IMG/VR virus record: IMGVR_UViG_3300042371_000216
Coordinates: 1-32,838 of that record
Reading direction: 5' to 3' (one strand)
DNA: 32,838 nucleotides
Source: a virus
Numbering within the stretch: position 1 is the stretch's first letter; each line of letters begins with the position of its first letter. The notes beneath the pieces were generated by a model, which saw only the letters and a list, made by a program, of their open reading frames with translations, searched no databases and had not been told where the DNA came from. Shown piece by piece: positions 1,758 through 30,872 of this stretch. A program made the translations under genes and the position numbers.

Positions 1758-3207
1758 GTGGAAGCCTGCGTTTTATACGCAGCGCAAGAATCGTGCAACC
1801 GATGGCGATGAGATAATCAACTTCGCTGAAACCTATTTCAATGTGCTGAAAGGTTTTCGGGCAGGCCAACCTTTACGCTTTACGACTTGGCAAAAGTGGT
1901 TGATGCGCTCGCTTTATGAGCGTGATGATGTAACGAGCAGGCTTCGTTATCGCCGTGCGCTAATCGGTTTGCCTCGTAAGCAGGGCAAAAGTTTGATGAT
2001 GTCTGCTGTCGGTGTGTATGGAATGATCGCAGGCGAAGCAGGTTCAGAGGTTTACGCTGTGGCGAACGACAGACAGCAGGCACGAATCATCTTCAATGAA
2101 GCGAAGCAACAGATCGTGAACAGCCCTTTGCTGAATGCTGAGTCAAAGATTTATCGTGATGCGATTGAGATGCCACGCTTCGGTTCGGTGTTCCGTGTTT
2201 TGTCATCAGACTTCAAAGGGCAAGCTGGATTGAATCCATCGCTGGTGCTGTTTGACGAATTGTGGGGGCAGGCGAATCACGATCTCTATGACCAGATGAC
2301 ATTAGGTTCAGGCGCACGAATAGAACCACTCACTATCAGCATTACGACTGCTGGCTACGATCTTGATTCGCTTGCAGGCAAGTTGTATCAATATGGCAAA
2401 CAAGTTGCAGCAGGCGAAGTTGATGATGACTCTTTCGGTTTCTGGTGGTGGGAAGCACCTGAAGATTGTTTGATAGATGATCGCAAAGCGTGGCGTGTAG
2501 CGAATCCGAATCTTGCCGAAGGTTTACTTGACCCAGATGATCTAGCAGTAGCAGTCAAGCAGACTTCGGAGATGGGTATGCGCCGTTGGCGTTTGAACCA
2601 GTGGGTGCGATCTCAAGAATCGTGGCTACCTGTTGGTGCGTGGGAACAATGCGTGTCAGATCGTCAGTTGGATTCGGAGTTGCCTGTGTGGGTGGGGATT
2701 GATATGGCTTTGAAGCACGACAGCATCGGTGTCGTGATCGCTCAGCCTCAAGATGGTTGCACTGTTGTTCGCTCAAAGATTTGGCAACCTTCGCTTGAAG
2801 GCGTTGATGTTTCTGAAGTAGAAGTTTATTTGCGTGAAGTTCACGCCACCTATCGGGTGCAAGAGTTCGCCTTTGACCCTGCTTACTTTCAGAGAAGCGC
2901 AGAAGCGTTAAGCGATGACGGGCTACCGATGGTTGAGTTCGGGCAATCGGCAGCACGAATGATTCCTGCTTGCGGTAACGCCTATGAGATGATCGTGAAC
3001 AAGAAAGTGGCGCACGATGGCTCACCAACTTTCACAGATCAGGTGCTATCTGCTGCACAACGAATGACTGACACTGGTTGGCGGTTAAGTAAAGGCAAGT
3101 CAAGGCGTAAGATAGATGCGTGTATTGCTATGGTGATGGCGTTAGATCGTGCAACAACTAGAGCGACAGCAGTTATTGAACCATCAGTATTGGACATTTG
3201 GAAATGA
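1702..3207 (+). CDS. terL: Terminase large subunit (HK97-type)
   Basis: This is the packaging motor ATPase and headful/cos nuclease, 501 aa from the ATG at 1702. It shows a Walker A-like motif in LPRKQGKSLMMSAVG, a Walker B in PSLVLFDELWGQ, and RNase H-fold nuclease acidic residues in WVGIDMALKHDSIG and KIDACIAMVMALDRA. Its length is typical for the HK97-type family. A GTG at 1681 would extend it by seven residues; I prefer the ATG because it shortens the overlap with TerS. The stop overlaps the ATG of the next small gene (ATGA at 3204-3207). Confidence 0.93.
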   Translation: MISATSISGLPKSVQPADKWKPAFYTQRKNRATDGDEIINFAETYFNVLKGFRAGQPLRFTTWQKWLMRSLYERDDVTSRLRYRRALIGLPRKQGKSLMMSAVGVYGMIAGEAGSEVYAVANDRQQARIIFNEAKQQIVNSPLLNAESKIYRDAIEMPRFGSVFRVLSSDFKGQAGLNPSLVLFDELWGQANHDLYDQMTLGSGARIEPLTISITTAGYDLDSLAGKLYQYGKQVAAGEVDDDSFGFWWWEAPEDCLIDDRKAWRVANPNLAEGLLDPDDLAVAVKQTSEMGMRRWRLNQWVRSQESWLPVGAWEQCVSDRQLDSELPVWVGIDMALKHDSIGVVIAQPQDGCTVVRSKIWQPSLEGVDVSEVEVYLREVHATYRVQEFAFDPAYFQRSAEALSDDGLPMVEFGQSAARMIPACGNAYEMIVNKKVAHDGSPTFTDQVLSAAQRMTDTGWRLSKGKSRRKIDACIAMVMALDRATTRATAVIEPSVLDIWK

Positions 3208-3347: not shown

Positions 3348-4507
3348 GTTTGTTTCGCAGGTCTGAACAACGAGCGTTGCCGACTTCTATTGACCCATAT
3401 CAGATCACGGCTCGCCCGTATTATCCAAACTACACAGGCGAAATCGTTACCGAACTCACAGCGTTAGCGCACAGCGCAGTCATTTCAGCAGTAACTATTC
3501 TTGCTGATTCAATCGCTGCGATGCCACTTGAACTTACTCGCACTCGTGGTGGTCGCATAGAGAAACTTCCCACACCATCGGTTCTGCAACGCCCGAACGA
3601 TAGACAAAATATGTTTGAGTTCGTTCACCAAACTATGGCAACTCTTGCTTTGCACGGCAACGCCTACATTTATGCGCCTCAAGGTTCAAACGGTTTGCCT
3701 TTAGAGATGCGAAACATTCACCCTAAAGCAATCAACAAAATCGCAGTAACCGACACAGGCGAAATGATTTATGAGATGGGCAAACAAGAATACTCAAGCA
3801 AAGACATTCGTGCAATCCACTGGTTGATCTTGCCGAATCAGTTGCGTGGCGTTTCACCGATAGACACAATGCGAAACACTGTCGGTATGGGCTTAGCGAT
3901 GGACAGATTCTTGGCACAGTTCTATGGCGAAGGCGCAACACCATCATCAGTTTTAGAAACAGATGGCGCATTAACACCAGATCAGGCACGACAGATTCGT
4001 GATTCGTGGGAAGAATCACATTACAAACATCGTAAACCAGCCGTGCTTCAAGGCGGATTGAAGTGGAGGCCAATCACAACAAGCGCAGCCGATATGCAAA
4101 TGTTGGAACATAAAGAGTCAATCATTCGTGATATCGCCCGTGTGTATCGCATACCGCTTCACTTAATCATCGGCACAGGCGGAGACAGCCAGACATATCA
4201 GAATCTTGAAGCAGTCGGTTCAGCGTTCTACCAATACACGCTTCTAGGTTGGGTGCGTAGATTAGAAACAGCGTTCAGCGAAATGTTGCCTATCAATGAG
4301 CAGGTTCGTTTCAATGCTTCAGAGTTCTTGCGAGCCGACTTGATGACCCGTGTTAAGGCACAGCAGTTGCAAATACTTTCTGGCACGATGACACCGAACG
4401 AAGCACGAGAGATTGAGAACCGTGAACCTTACGATGGTGGCAACGATTTCAGCGCACCTTCAATCACACCGAACATTGGCAGCGATGCCATACCGCCAGA
4501 AAAGTAG
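3344..4507 (+). CDS. Portal protein (HK97 family)
   Basis: This 387-aa protein follows the terminase and precedes the protease. It has the HK97-portal N-terminal signature HSAVISAVTILADSIAAMPL (about residues 43-62) and later GNAYIY, IHWL, GVSPID and DIARVYRIPLHLI segments that recur in this family. It would form the dodecameric ring through which DNA enters the capsid. The length is in the usual range for the family. Confidence 0.93.
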   Translation: MSLFRRSEQRALPTSIDPYQITARPYYPNYTGEIVTELTALAHSAVISAVTILADSIAAMPLELTRTRGGRIEKLPTPSVLQRPNDRQNMFEFVHQTMATLALHGNAYIYAPQGSNGLPLEMRNIHPKAINKIAVTDTGEMIYEMGKQEYSSKDIRAIHWLILPNQLRGVSPIDTMRNTVGMGLAMDRFLAQFYGEGATPSSVLETDGALTPDQARQIRDSWEESHYKHRKPAVLQGGLKWRPITTSAADMQMLEHKESIIRDIARVYRIPLHLIIGTGGDSQTYQNLEAVGSAFYQYTLLGWVRRLETAFSEMLPINEQVRFNASEFLRADLMTRVKAQQLQILSGTMTPNEAREIENREPYDGGNDFSAPSITPNIGSDAIPPEK

Positions 4508-4776: not shown

Positions 4777-5811
4777 ATGCCTTACGAAGTAATTATGAAC
4801 GCCGAAAATTGTGATGGACACGCCGTTGTCAAGGTTGGTTCAATGATTCCTGTTGATGGTGGTTGCCACGCAACACATCAAGAGGCGTTAGATCAGATGA
4901 TTGCGTTGAATATTGCTACAGCAGATGAGCGAAGCGAACGAAATGAACAGATGGTTGCTGCGATTGATGAGGCGATCAATCTTTTGTTGCAAGCGAAGAT
5001 GACTTACGAAGCCGATGAAGAAGAAGATGAAGATGAGCCAATGGATTCAAGCGAGATGGAAGATGATGAGGAATATAGGGCGGTGAACCTTGTTGCGCCT
5101 GCTTTTATGCGAGCATCTGCCAAGCGTGGGCTGGCATTACACGAACAAGGCGAATCAGGTGATGGGCTTGTGCCTGCAACTGTCGCTGATGCTCGCCGTA
5201 TGGCGAACGGTGAAGCGTTAAGCGAGAACAAATGGCGCAAAATATCCCCGTGGATTGCTCGCCACATCGTTGATCTTGACGCAGTTCAAGGCGATGAGAT
5301 CACTGCTGGACTTGTAGCGATGCTGTTGTGGGGTGGCGGTTCAAGCAAAGCGAGCGCAAGACGAACGCAAGCATACGCAGAACGAATCGTGAACCAGTTA
5401 GAGAACGAAACTCGTGCGCCTGCACCTAAGAAAGATCAGATCAAAGGCAGTGAGAAGAACCCTGAAGGCTCAGCACAAGGCAAAACAGGTGGCATAGTTC
5501 TTAACGAAGCAACGAACAAAGCACTTGAAAACAAAGTTAAGGAACATAATGAGAAGATGAAGGAACGCAACCGACCTGATTGGACTCGCACATCTTTGGG
5601 TGCAGTCAAGTCGGTCTATCGGCGTGGCGCAGGTGCGTTCTCAACATCACACAGACCTGGAATTGGTAGAGCACAGTGGGCGATGGCAAGAGTGAACGCC
5701 TTTCTGTTCTTATGCCGAACAGGTGCGCCAGCAAACTCAAATTATATAACTGACAACGATCTGCTCAAGCCTTCACACCCGAAGTATTCAAGCAGTAGCG
5801 AAAACAAATAA
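4777..5811 (+). CDS. Conserved phage head-region protein of unknown function
   Basis: This is a 344-aa protein starting at the ATG 4777, two bases after the previous stop; a TTG six bases earlier is possible. It has an N-terminal region of about 90 residues ending in a Glu/Asp-rich stretch (residues ~73-90). A central segment reads WIARHIVDLDA followed by AMLLWGGGSSKASARR. The C-terminus contains RAQWAMARVNAFLFLCRTG followed by YITDNDLLKPSHPKY. I have the impression that the last two segments recur in phage proteins encoded beside prohead proteases, but I cannot give a tested function. It may contribute to capsid assembly or scaffolding (inference from position). Confidence 0.68.
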   Translation: MPYEVIMNAENCDGHAVVKVGSMIPVDGGCHATHQEALDQMIALNIATADERSERNEQMVAAIDEAINLLLQAKMTYEADEEEDEDEPMDSSEMEDDEEYRAVNLVAPAFMRASAKRGLALHEQGESGDGLVPATVADARRMANGEALSENKWRKISPWIARHIVDLDAVQGDEITAGLVAMLLWGGGSSKASARRTQAYAERIVNQLENETRAPAPKKDQIKGSEKNPEGSAQGKTGGIVLNEATNKALENKVKEHNEKMKERNRPDWTRTSLGAVKSVYRRGAGAFSTSHRPGIGRAQWAMARVNAFLFLCRTGAPANSNYITDNDLLKPSHPKYSSSSENK

Positions 5812-24053: not shown

Positions 24054-24222
24054 GGAGTTGCAGATGGCTTACGAGTTTGCGATTGGTGTCTTGATTGATT
24101 GCGCCCGAAGGGTCGTGGTTTTTGATGGCACTGATCGTGAATCGTTAGACAGTCTGCGTGAAGCCGTGTTGAAGTTTGGCGAGGTAAACGATTTGATTGC
24201 GAAGTTTTACAGTGAGTCGTGA
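24037..24222 (+). CDS. Small hypothetical early protein
   Basis: This 61-aa helical protein overlaps the annealase end by 17 bases and the WhiB start by 11. It contains EFAIGVLIDCARRVVVFDG and SLREAVLKFGEVNDLIAKFY. The tight overlaps on both sides suggest it is a real gene. There is no recognisable family. Confidence 0.6.
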   Translation: MSNPSEELQMAYEFAIGVLIDCARRVVVFDGTDRESLDSLREAVLKFGEVNDLIAKFYSES

Positions 24223-24469
24223 ACATTGGTCGGAAGATGCAGCTTGCCGTGGCAAGAGTGCGAGCGTGTTCTTCCCTGATCACATTGGCTTTAATGATCA
24301 TCGTTACGATGAGGCTCTGGCTATCTGTGCGAATTGCACGGTGCGTCAAGAATGTTTAGAGATGGTTATTGTGTTGGAAGACACTGATGATCGTTGGGGT
24401 GTGTTCGGTGGTTTGACTCCACCACAGAGAGCGAAGTTGCGTAGAGAGTTGAAAGAGATGTTGAGATGA
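24212..24469 (+). CDS. WhiB-like iron-sulfur transcription regulator
   Basis: This 85-aa protein starts at GTG 24212; a TTG 15 bases earlier is possible. It has the four Fe-S cysteines of the Wbl family, Cys12 (AACRGKS), then Cys39, Cys42 and Cys48 in CANCTVRQEC. The diagnostic turn RWGVFGG is at 61-67, and a basic C-terminal helix follows (PQRAKLRREL). Wbl proteins bind sigma factor region 4 and redirect transcription; mycobacteriophage members interfere with host WhiB2. The family is confined to Actinobacteria and their phages, which fixes the host phylum. Confidence 0.94.
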   Translation: MSREHWSEDAACRGKSASVFFPDHIGFNDHRYDEALAICANCTVRQECLEMVIVLEDTDDRWGVFGGLTPPQRAKLRRELKEMLR

Positions 24470-26883: not shown

Positions 26884-27072
26884 ATGAAAAAGACAATATT
26901 AATTAATGGCAAAGAATATAAAAACCAAAGAATGTTATTGCCAAAACAATTAACAGAGCAAATCAGCAGCGTCAAAGAACAACTTGAGAAAGTTGCTTTT
27001 TCAAATCAAACAACAGATGTTACTGCTGATTGGCTTTACAATCTGTGTGATCTTCTAGACGAAATAATTTAG
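26884..27072 (+). CDS. Small early protein before the first hammerhead
   Basis: This 62-aa protein starts at ATG 26884 behind leader copy C; the open frame further upstream lacks an RBS. It contains LINGKEYKNQRMLLPKQLTE then ISSVKEQLEKVAF and TADWLYNLCDLLDEII, a helical acidic protein. Its stop codon TAG (27070-27072) abuts the hammerhead. No family is recognised. Confidence 0.65.
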   Translation: MKKTILINGKEYKNQRMLLPKQLTEQISSVKEQLEKVAFSNQTTDVTADWLYNLCDLLDEII

Positions 27073-27128
27073 TCAGACCGAAACCCCGAAAGGGGTCTAG
27101 CGATTTCTTCGCTACTGATGAGGTCAGA
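27073..27128 (+). ncRNA. Type II hammerhead ribozyme 1
   Basis: All parts of the hammerhead core are present in type II order. Stem II 5' strand is GACC (27076-27079), followed by GAAA (27080-27083). Stem III is CCCC-GAAA-GGGG (27084-27095), then U-C (27096-27097) with the cleavage site after C27097. Stem I is TAGCGA-TTTCT-TCGCTA (27098-27114), then CTGATGA (27115-27121) and stem II 3' strand GGTC (27122-27125). The 10.1-11.1 pair is G-C, as usual, and the cleavage triplet is GUC. A T-A and C-G pair beyond an A-A mismatch extend stem II to 27073-27128. It begins directly after the upstream stop codon. Confidence 0.92.
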
Positions 27129-27134
27129 AATCTC

Positions 27135-27154
27135 AAGTTCAAGAGGAGGACTTA
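27135..27154 (+). promoter_or_regulatory. Leader module copy D: RBS cassette after hammerhead 1
   Basis: AAGTTCAAGAGGAGGACTTA follows hammerhead 1 and precedes ATG 27158. TGAG (27119-27122) could alternatively pair with CTCA (27132-27135), which would disrupt the ribozyme core and stem II just before the RBS, so cleavage and translation may compete. Confidence 0.6.
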
Positions 27155-27157
27155 GAA

Positions 27158-27568
27158 ATGGAAACACTAAAAACAAATATCCTGAATCTGATTTCAGGAG
27201 AACACGAAAGCGCTTACAGTCTTGCGAAAGAAGTTCTTGCAGGAATTGAAAGCGAAAACGAAACGCCAGAAGGCAGAACCGCTCACTCAATGTTCAATGC
27301 GATCATCAGATTCGCAGACAGCCGAACAGATATTGACAAAGCATTGATGGGACTGATTTCTACAGCCAAGTCAGAGCAGGCCAGACTTCAGAACGGTGCA
27401 AGACTTGATCTCGGTTGGATCAATCCGAGTCGCTTTGAAGAAGCCGTGCAAGAGTCAAAAAGATTGGAACACGAGATCAACACTCTTGCTTACTTGGCTG
27501 GTCTTACTGGAGAGCAGAGATCAGAACTTTTCCACAAGATTCAAGAATTGACCGTTTACAGCAATTAG
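27158..27568 (+). CDS. Early protein flanked by the two hammerheads
   Basis: This is a 136-aa, mostly helical acidic protein (ESAYSLAKEVLAGIESENE, RFEEAVQESKRLEHEINTLA). No enzyme motif or named family is seen. It is notable for position: hammerhead 1 ends 30 bases before its ATG, and hammerhead 2 starts right after its TAG (27566-27568). Cleavage of both ribozymes would leave this gene alone on a 496-nt RNA (27098-27593). Confidence 0.7.
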   Translation: METLKTNILNLISGEHESAYSLAKEVLAGIESENETPEGRTAHSMFNAIIRFADSRTDIDKALMGLISTAKSEQARLQNGARLDLGWINPSRFEEAVQESKRLEHEINTLAYLAGLTGEQRSELFHKIQELTVYSN

Positions 27569-27624
27569 TCAGACCGAAACGCTGAGAAGCGTCTAGCGAT
27601 CACTTCGCTACTGATGAGGTCAGA
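27569..27624 (+). ncRNA. Type II hammerhead ribozyme 2
   Basis: This is a second complete copy. GACC (27572-27575) and GAAA (27576-27579) are followed by stem III CGCT-GAGA-AGCG (27580-27591), then U-C (27592-27593) with cleavage after C27593. Stem I is TAGCGA-TCACT-TCGCTA (27594-27610), then CTGATGA (27611-27617) and GGTC (27618-27621). Compared with copy 1, stem III changes on both strands (CCCC/GGGG to CGCT/AGCG) while pairing is kept, both tetraloops stay GNRA, and the loop of stem I drifts. That is the pattern expected of selected RNA structure. Confidence 0.92.
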
Positions 27625-27650
27625 AATCTCAACCAAGAGGAGGAACAGAA

Positions 27651-27956
27651 ATGAAAACAGAAAAATTTGATCGGGAAGTCATTGATCTAATTAACTCGGT
27701 AAAAGACAAAGACATACAACACGAAATGATACAAATCAATAAAAACTATACGCAAGTCATTGTTGGCTTACGCATCGCAAAAAATTATCTAACAGAAATT
27801 GACGAAACAACTGGCACAGACCACAACGAAATGATCTCAAACATAATTGAACTAATCGGTCAGGCCAAAAACTCAGAGATCGGCTTGCTAGAAATGTCAG
27901 CGTTCTACAGCAACGATTGCTACAGTGGCGAACACCAAGAGGAGGCAACAAAATGA
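27651..27956 (+). CDS. Early protein downstream of hammerhead 2
   Basis: This 101-aa helical protein (KFDREVIDLINSVKDKDIQH, QVIVGLRIAKNYLTEIDE) sits behind AAGAGGAGGAACAGAA, a relative of the repeated RBS cassette. Translation is coupled to the next gene (TGA overlaps ATG at 27953). Function unknown. Confidence 0.65.
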   Translation: MKTEKFDREVIDLINSVKDKDIQHEMIQINKNYTQVIVGLRIAKNYLTEIDETTGTDHNEMISNIIELIGQAKNSEIGLLEMSAFYSNDCYSGEHQEEATK

Positions 27957-29415: not shown

Positions 29416-30030
29416 ATGGCACAGAGAGAAATAGAACACCTGATCGTAGATATTGATTCGGTGAAACCGCACGAAAAGAATGTGCGACAAGGCGACATCG
29501 GGGCAATCTCTGAATCGTTAAAAGCCCACGGACAGTATCGCCCGATAGTGGTTGATCGGCGCACCAAGAAAATCTTGGCAGGTAATCACACTTGGAAAGC
29601 AGCAAAAGCATTGGGCTGGCAACAGATAACGGCAGGCTTCATAGAAACCAAAGACGATAACGAAGCGTTACGAATCTTGTTGGCAGACAATAAAGCGAAT
29701 GACCTAGCAACTTATGACGAAGCAGAACTGATTGATTTGTTGAAACAAATTGCCGATACGAGCGAAGGGCTATTGGGAACTTTGTTTGACGGAGATGATC
29801 TTGATGATTTGGTGTTCGCATCGGAATACACGCACGGCAACACTCAACAAGGCACTGAGGCAGGCGCAGACACCGAAGAATACTTCAACAAGGGCATACG
29901 AAGTCTCATTTTGATTTTTGAAGAAGATGTCCACACAGAAATAACTGAAAAACTTAAAATTATTTGTGAAAAACTTTCTATTGATAATCACTCGGAAGCC
30001 ATCAAATATTTAATTGAGTCATGGAACTAA
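29416..30030 (+). CDS. ParB/sulfiredoxin-fold protein
   Basis: This 204-aa protein starts at ATG 29416 behind GGAGGAG. Residues ~10-75 have the ParB-like pattern: IDSVKPHEKNVRQGDIGAIS, then GQYRPIVVDRRTKKILAGNH and TWKAAKALGW. The C-terminal half is acidic (DNKANDLATYDEAELIDLLK). ParB/Srx-fold proteins often accompany DNA-modification genes and may have nuclease, NTPase or DNA-recognition activity. It overlaps the dioxygenase gene by 10 bases, so the two are almost certainly co-translated. Its role in targeting or quality control of modification is inferred. Confidence 0.85.
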   Translation: MAQREIEHLIVDIDSVKPHEKNVRQGDIGAISESLKAHGQYRPIVVDRRTKKILAGNHTWKAAKALGWQQITAGFIETKDDNEALRILLADNKANDLATYDEAELIDLLKQIADTSEGLLGTLFDGDDLDDLVFASEYTHGNTQQGTEAGADTEEYFNKGIRSLILIFEEDVHTEITEKLKIICEKLSIDNHSEAIKYLIESWN

Positions 30031-30872
30031 TCTATAAATCTTTGATTCATTGGGAACCATCAAAAGATCGTCAAAATCGTTTCGCTGAATTATCTGATGG
30101 TCGTGCAAACGATTTGATGATATGCGATGCAGATACAGGGCAAATATCTGTCGTGCAAAAGCGTGTTGATTTAGCGTCAATGATTGATATAAAAAAACTT
30201 TTATTGAATCTTCGTTTTCGTGGTTTTTACAATATGCCCAAAGATGGCGCACGAGCGAGGGCTTCTGGCATTCTCGCTAAAGAACAATGGTTCGGTTTTA
30301 TACCGCCAGACGAATTGAAAAGGCGTTTCGCAACCACTCGCCCATCTCTTTATAACAAAAATGCTGATCTCGGTTTTATGCTTGAAAACTTGACACCGAT
30401 GTTGTGGGGCGTTCTACAAGAGATTGCGCCCGATCAAACCAGAGATCACGAAGATTTGGTGAGAAAAACAATTCACAAAGATTGGTTGTTATGCGATATG
30501 CCATTTACATCTGGCATCATCAATCACACGAATGTGTTGCCGTATCACAAAGACTCTGGCAACTTGGGCGGTTCGTGGTCTATGATGCTGGCATTAAGAA
30601 AAGGCGACTCTGGCGGTCAATTACATATTCCAGAATATGAAGAAACTTTGGCGATACCCGATTGTTCGCTGACTTTCTTTAACGGCCAACAATATTGGCA
30701 CGGGGTTACGCCAGTGTGTCTTCGTGATAAAGACGCTTATCGCTTTACGATGGTTTGGTATGTTAAAAACAGAATTAAAGATTCTGGTTCTTCAAAAGAA
30801 GAATTACATCGGGCTAGATTGTCGGCAACAAAATCAAGTAATTTGATTAGACCCAAAAGAAAAAAAGATTAA
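30021..30872 (+). CDS. TET/JBP-type 2-oxoglutarate, Fe(II) dioxygenase
   Basis: This 283-aa protein carries the double-stranded beta-helix iron site: HxD in LPYHKDSGNLGGSW (His176, Asp178), the distal His in QQYWHGVTPV (His227), and an Arg for 2-oxoglutarate in AYRFTMVWY (Arg241). The segments KGDSGGQLHIPEYEETL and SLTFFNGQQYWHG match the spacing in phage TET/JBP enzymes. These oxidise 5-methyl groups on bases in DNA. There is no C5 cytosine methyltransferase in the genome to make 5mC, so I predict oxidation of thymine to 5-hydroxymethyluracil, as in JBP. It precedes the amino acid:DNA transferase by ten bases. Confidence 0.83.
   Translation: MELIYKSLIHWEPSKDRQNRFAELSDGRANDLMICDADTGQISVVQKRVDLASMIDIKKLLLNLRFRGFYNMPKDGARARASGILAKEQWFGFIPPDELKRRFATTRPSLYNKNADLGFMLENLTPMLWGVLQEIAPDQTRDHEDLVRKTIHKDWLLCDMPFTSGIINHTNVLPYHKDSGNLGGSWSMMLALRKGDSGGQLHIPEYEETLAIPDCSLTFFNGQQYWHGVTPVCLRDKDAYRFTMVWYVKNRIKDSGSSKEELHRARLSATKSSNLIRPKRKKD

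Follow-up and report, generated by a model that had tools for sequence, protein, structure and literature searches.

Serial hammerhead ribozymes that flank single genes are known from prophages, and Perreault et al. (2011) proposed that they process mRNA (PMC3088659). Cleavage has been shown in vitro for serial hammerheads of three bacteria, and for one set in E. coli as well (PMC3088659). Neither the type II hammerhead nor its serial occurrence in prophages nor the idea of processing is therefore new. A 2017 review names the role of prokaryotic hammerheads as one of the field's open questions (PMC6155905).

Here we analysed a 32,838-nucleotide stretch of viral DNA (IMG/VR record IMGVR_UViG_3300042371_000216, positions 1 to 32,838), hereafter the window. 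We confirm that it holds two motifs of the self-cleaving type with intact type II cores, whose cleavage is predicted (Table 1). Both copies run from the 5′ strand of stem II through GAAA, a capped stem III, UC, a capped stem I and CUGAUGA to the 3′ strand of stem II. The core elements CUGANGA, GAAA and UH at the cleavage site are present in each, and three helices surround the core with stems I and III capped and stem II open. Copy 2 repeats the layout of copy 1 shifted by 496 nt, differing in a GAGA loop on stem III and a TCACT loop on stem I. Two stem III pairs are altered on both sides between the copies, a compensatory change that the sequence-only reading of this DNA had already pointed out; it had also placed the two complete cores exactly, and we arrive at the same predicted cleavage sites.

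Table 1. Positions of the features discussed (window coordinates unless L107 is given)
Feature	Position	Strand	Basis or remark
Type II hammerhead ribozyme, copy 1	27076–27125	+	Intact core read from sequence; folding, descriptor, covariance models
Copy 1, invariant A on both sides of stem II	27075 and 27126		
Copy 1, stem II	27076–27079 with 27122–27125		GACC with GGTC
Copy 1, core strand	27080–27083		GAAA
Copy 1, stem III	27083–27087 with 27092–27096		ACCCC with GGGGT; GAAA loop
Copy 1, predicted cleavage site	27097–27098	+	After C17 = C27097; core numbering from sequence
Copy 1, stem I	27098–27114		TAGCGA/TCGCTA; loop TTTCT
Copy 1, core strand	27115–27121		CTGATGA
Type II hammerhead ribozyme, copy 2	27572–27621	+	Intact core read from sequence; folding, descriptor, covariance models
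Copy 2, predicted cleavage site	27593–27594	+	After C17 = C27593; core numbering from sequence
ORF 1, 62 aa, no confident family, upstream cistron	26884–27072	+	Stop TAG 27070–27072
Shine-Dalgarno AGAGGAGG and ATG (27158) of ORF 2	27142–27160	+	Sequence
ORF 2, 136 aa, unknown function, cistron between both hammerheads	27158–27568	+	15 IMG/VR relatives
Shine-Dalgarno AGAGGAGG and ATG (27651) of ORF 3	27636–27653	+	Sequence
ORF 3, 101 aa, unknown function	27651–27956	+	ORF call, family search
Phage-encoded WhiB transcription factor	24197–24469		
ParB-like protein adjoining TET/JBP-like oxygenase	29416–30030 and 30021–30872		Oxygenase under Pfam cut-off
T-elements of Streptomyces phage OzzyJ (L107), six	1212–1253, 1959–2000, 3027–3068, 3718–3759, 4444–4485, 5009–5050		All at gene junctions, unannotated
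Repeated palindrome ahead of several OzzyJ T-elements (L107)	around 1190–1212, 3690–3718, 4425–4444		GTGTGxTACCTTCGCAC-like

The minimum-energy fold of both copies is the hammerhead structure, with the folding energy of copy 2 counting as weak evidence (14 of 200 shuffles fold equally well). The motif descriptor matched twice in the window and never in 100 shuffles, and the structural scanner found no match in 1.74 Mb of shuffled phage DNA. A search pattern that prescribed the core, stem II and, for stems I and III, the outermost pairs alone was then run against 2.9 million viral contigs. Matches to the same sub-variant occurred in 75 contigs, and this prevalence, like the others given below, rests on patterns seeded by the window. 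Covariation was assessed on 55 distinct pattern matches at the inner pairs that the pattern left free, namely stem III pairs 1–3 and stem I pairs 1–5. Nearly all of these pairs form in 54–55 of the 55 matches, with many compensatory changes, and their covariation lies well over the maximum of 2000 random re-pairings. Moreover, 22 aligned sequences retain 15/15 pairs with 48 double changes, a signal that is lost when the structure is slid. The helices are thus supported by covariation. Stem II is invariant among the A1 sequences because the search pattern fixed it; the variants GGAC/GTCC and GATC/GATC are present in contig L045. A simple test found the full core in 72 of 75 distinct covariance-model matches, the exceptions being one alignment artefact (GAAA lies further upstream) and two core changes. 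The catalytic core is kept in about 73/75 distinct matches while the stems diverge.

The Rfam type II model (RF02276) aligns end to end with copy 1 at 20.9 bits, below its gathering cut-off of 37, because stem II of the model has 2 bp and a pseudoknot tail is modelled as well. An Rfam gathering search of the whole window and nine hammerhead-bearing loci gave no matches. The sequence-only reading had named a covariance score below threshold as grounds for refutation; formally the RF02276 score is one, yet we do not accept it as such, since a covariance model built solely from other phage lineages gives 66.5 bits for copy 1 and 64.4 bits for copy 2, and the helices covary. Bases that the search pattern fixed are fixed in that model too, and the cleanest test is therefore the covariation of the free inner pairs in the 55 matches. 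The missed Rfam gathering score is what could speak for a chance or non-functional resemblance, but the covariation already refutes it and, with no shuffle match and the placement described below, we regard it as practically out of the question. A search for type I and III hammerheads returned two weak matches only, one of them a type II copy re-read, and a hammerhead pattern scan of bacterial and archaeal genomes gave a sole match in a Sulfobacillus MAG (L089, 5417–5468).

The sub-variant has a 4-bp stem II, and in 49 of the 55 pattern matches stem I has 6 bp and its loop 5 nt. Beyond the core, its alignment shows three further bases that never vary: the two As that flank stem II and the U that opens loop I (U27104 in copy 1). 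The Watson-Crick pseudoknot between loop I and the 3′ tail that published type II ribozymes have could form five pairs in copy 1 (UUUCU with AGAAA) and 3/5 in copy 2. Because the pairing is so short in copy 2, fast cleavage would depend on a putative loop contact. With U27104, A27075 and A27126 as pointers, the alignment suggests that the sub-variant may use a non-canonical contact between loop I and stem II.

Each hammerhead begins 3 nt past the TAG stop of the preceding ORF (ORF 1 and ORF 2), and from the end of stem II to the next start codon there are 32 nt in copy 1 and 29 nt in copy 2. The sequence-only reading was therefore right that each copy fills the space between a stop codon and a ribosome-binding site. 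ARAGORN found no tRNA genes at the junctions, no intrinsic terminators were found at the hammerheads, and no relatives of ORF 3 were found in viral contigs. The phage-encoded WhiB transcription factor points to an actinobacterial host, and the terminases nearest to that of the window come from Pontimonas and Streptomyces phages; both support the actinophage origin that had been proposed. Further downstream, the ParB-like protein adjoining a TET/JBP-like oxygenase possibly relates to DNA base modification.

Placement was counted for 112 distinct type II motifs in viral contigs and phages; the contigs are fragments and their ORFs were called by simple rules. A stop codon no more than 12 nt from stem II together with a start codon and Shine-Dalgarno sequence 19–45 nt downstream on the same strand was found for 80/112 motifs, against 2.4% of random same-strand positions and 2/112 on the opposite strand. 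The motifs thus lie on the strand of the genes, between a stop codon and the ribosome-binding site of the neighbour. In one motif set the commonest arrangement is an overlap by one base, the stop codon ending on the base with which stem II begins. Contig L045 carries eight hammerheads with near-identical stems in 3.3 kb, and none at its junctions with overlapping start and stop codons. Pelagibacter phage HTVC106P, a relative of a marine contig, yielded no hammerhead with RF02276, nor with the scanner in the stretch scanned.

The R4-like Streptomyces phages (Arquatrovirinae), to which we were led by a weak match of copy 1 in phage Janus, carry type II hammerheads in series, 9–12 per genome: 11 each in Janus and GirlDinner (each E < 1e-5), 9 in R4, 11 in Alvy, 12 in Salutena and 10 in Triumph. 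The right-arm operons of five R4-like phages together have 36 annotated gaps of 60 nt or longer, and 33 of these contain a hammerhead. The records of these phages carry the hammerheads without any annotation, and we found no paper on them in a search of the open-access literature, with subscription literature mostly outside its reach. The sequence-only reading had considered a tandem, intergenic, mRNA-processing arrangement unusual. This is not supported, given the serial copies of Perreault et al. (PMC3088659) and the 9–12 copies that are usual in R4-like phages. In the gap analysis, 5/8 motifs of R4 fall inside annotated CDS. The annotated starts of gp81, gp76, gp72 and others in R4 (NC_019414), and of several CDS in Alvy (NC_054669), lie upstream of or inside hammerheads, near the 5′ ends of the CDS, suggesting that motifs within CDS reflect misplaced start-codon annotation.

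Among the relatives of ORF 2, the upstream junction carries a hammerhead or nothing. The downstream junction, which is the site of copy 2 in the window, mostly carries a different RNA that we call the T-element (after the ORF 2 homologue in L001–L006, L010–L012 and L014). Some junctions of L007–L009 are without an element, which is thus dispensable at some relatives' junctions. The genes upstream of ORF 2 vary among relatives, and the leader is retained. The T-element combines an acceptor-like stem of 5 bp with an 11-nt strand that contains GGCA and a T-arm of 6 bp whose loop reads TTCRANN, in all 40 nt plus AC (consensus GgGtGa..GGCA.aCacc..GGTTCgAGtCC..ggCaCcCAC), and reaches up to seven copies per locus. 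Its pattern occurs in >120 viral contigs. Covariation is strong: all six pairs left free by the pattern form in 97 of 104 distinct 42-mers. Moreover, 154/172 T-elements lie no more than 60 nt after a stop codon. No Rfam family covers it, the nearest being the tRNA-like mascRNA, far under the cut-off. A T-arm scan also gave a second tRNA-like hairpin stack, GTTTGG.AG.GTCGG(TTCAACC)CCGAC.CCAAAC, in two relatives (L029 at 2245 and L002 at 10122).

Streptomyces phage OzzyJ, a relative, has no hammerhead match and carries six T-elements (Table 1). For two of these, the orthologous junction in Triumph holds a hammerhead. The first lies before an OCR-like gene, where neighbouring proteins of the two phages are 65% and 36% identical; the second lies before a small gene upstream of the pair at the OCR-like junction and rests on a short match. 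Several OzzyJ T-elements have the repeated palindrome 5–20 nt ahead of them, perhaps a promoter or repressor site, and are followed by another hairpin ahead of the Shine-Dalgarno sequence.

The GGCA strand of the T-element resembles G18–G19 of the tRNA D-loop, which docks in the T-loop. An acceptor stem plus T-arm is enough for RNase P (PMC11143913), which requires the T-loop and can dispense with the D-loop (PMC4919913). From this likeness and this sufficiency we think that the T-element may well be a substrate of host RNase P. We would put at even odds the broader proposition that two separate actinophage groups swap a hammerhead and the ~42-nt T-element, as either a minimal RNase P substrate or a new self-cleaving ribozyme, at orthologous junctions. 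Such replacement suggests selection on making an mRNA end at that place, not on the ribozyme itself.

What can be read directly, namely sequence, structure, covariation, strand and placement, leads us to give a probability of about 70% to both window elements being self-cleaving type II hammerheads that lie between the cistrons of a co-directional phage operon and cut its polycistronic mRNA into units. Self-cleavage is most likely the mechanism, judging by established chemistry and placement. Each hammerhead would cut the nascent mRNA after C17, freeing the 136-aa cistron as its own message. Owing to the type II topology both new ends would bear a hairpin: the upstream message would end in stem III with a 2′,3′-cyclic phosphate, and the downstream message would open with the stem I hairpin bearing a 5′-OH, ahead of a strong ribosome-binding site. 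Since stem II starts on the stop codon or next to it, it would be covered by a ribosome that is terminating, and cleavage would probably be delayed until the ribosome leaves. The expression and decay of neighbouring genes could in this way be uncoupled, as RNA punctuation. Our best reading of the sequences is that hammerheads and T-elements may be interchangeable punctuation of this kind, giving structured mRNA ends, although a 5′-OH need not stabilise an mRNA. The placement statistics agree with the processing role that the sequence-only reading had assigned; that role, with cleavage, end protection, coupling to the ribosome and benefit to the phage, is what we infer.

The stem I and stem III hairpins either side of the cut, together with T-elements and other hairpins at the same junctions, might instead mean that the structures act only as stable 5′ or 3′ hairpins, as barriers to decay, with catalysis incidental or lost. 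Were hairpins all that mattered, a catalytic core outside them would hardly be expected to persist in about 73/75 copies, and we consider this improbable. Somewhat less improbable, though still unlikely, are selfish or hitch-hiking modules that mark the boundaries of gene cassettes and spread by recombination without benefit to the phage. These could account for the varying genes ahead of a retained ORF 2 leader, for presence, absence and replacement at one and the same junction, and for the near-identical stems within L045. However, they sit poorly with the kept core and compensated stem changes, with the strict strand and position, and with the substitution of an unrelated RNA at the same place, which implies a need there. 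The ends left by hammerheads are those that RtcB joins. With one cistron flanked by two hammerheads, the excised ORF 2 RNA might thus be closed by a host RtcB-type ligase, through its 5′-OH and 2′,3′-cyclic phosphate, into a circular mRNA or RNA; RtcB is present in the actinobacterium Corynebacterium glutamicum, the control of our search. Against this, no RtcB was found in 18 phage records, window included, the second hammerhead is missing or replaced by a T-element in relatives, and Perreault et al. detected no circular or spliced products from hammerhead arrays (PMC3088659). We hold circularisation to be improbable too, in the same measure as hairpins alone.

Cleavage into separate messages remains our preferred reading. 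As far as we searched, three things appear new: the sub-variant that Rfam misses, with its stem II of 4 bp, the presence of hammerheads in nearly all gene gaps of R4-like phages, and the exchange with T-elements. Current annotation misses both RNAs, as Rfam is without the sub-variant and without the T-element. With replacement at the same boundaries, the long-standing question of why phages carry hammerheads becomes open to testing. Moreover, R4 is a classic phage of S. coelicolor with nine unannotated copies, and thus offers a laboratory system for tests of cleavage, mRNA ends and fitness.

Among known systems, the Theta (HDV-like) ribozymes of gut phages are likewise self-cleaving ribozymes in phage genomes; they differ in fold and are tied by the title of that paper to tRNA-based recoding rather than to mRNA junctions (PMC10879173). 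RNase P processing at tRNA-like structures also sets RNA ends, as in tRNA punctuation, the C4 RNA of phages P1 and P7 and a bacterial polycistronic mRNA (cited in PMC11143913). T-elements resemble substrates of this kind, whereas hammerheads need no enzyme and leave a 5′-OH rather than a 5′-phosphate. The published type II hammerhead (PMC3088659; RF02276) shares with the window copies the permutation open at stem II, the core, the GUC triplet, and a phage or prophage context with multiple copies flanking single genes. The sub-variant differs from it in the 4-bp rather than 2-bp stem II, the 6-bp stem I with 5-nt loop of most pattern matches, a score under the cut-off, an invariant A flanking stem II on both sides and a Watson-Crick pseudoknot that is not conserved. 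The arrays of R4, Janus, GirlDinner, Alvy, Salutena and Triumph resemble the window in placing type II hammerheads between stop codon and ribosome-binding site, there in most gaps of the operon; unlike the window copies, they have a stem II of about 3–4 bp and a GCC-containing tail like the Rfam consensus, and mostly score above the RF02276 cut-off.
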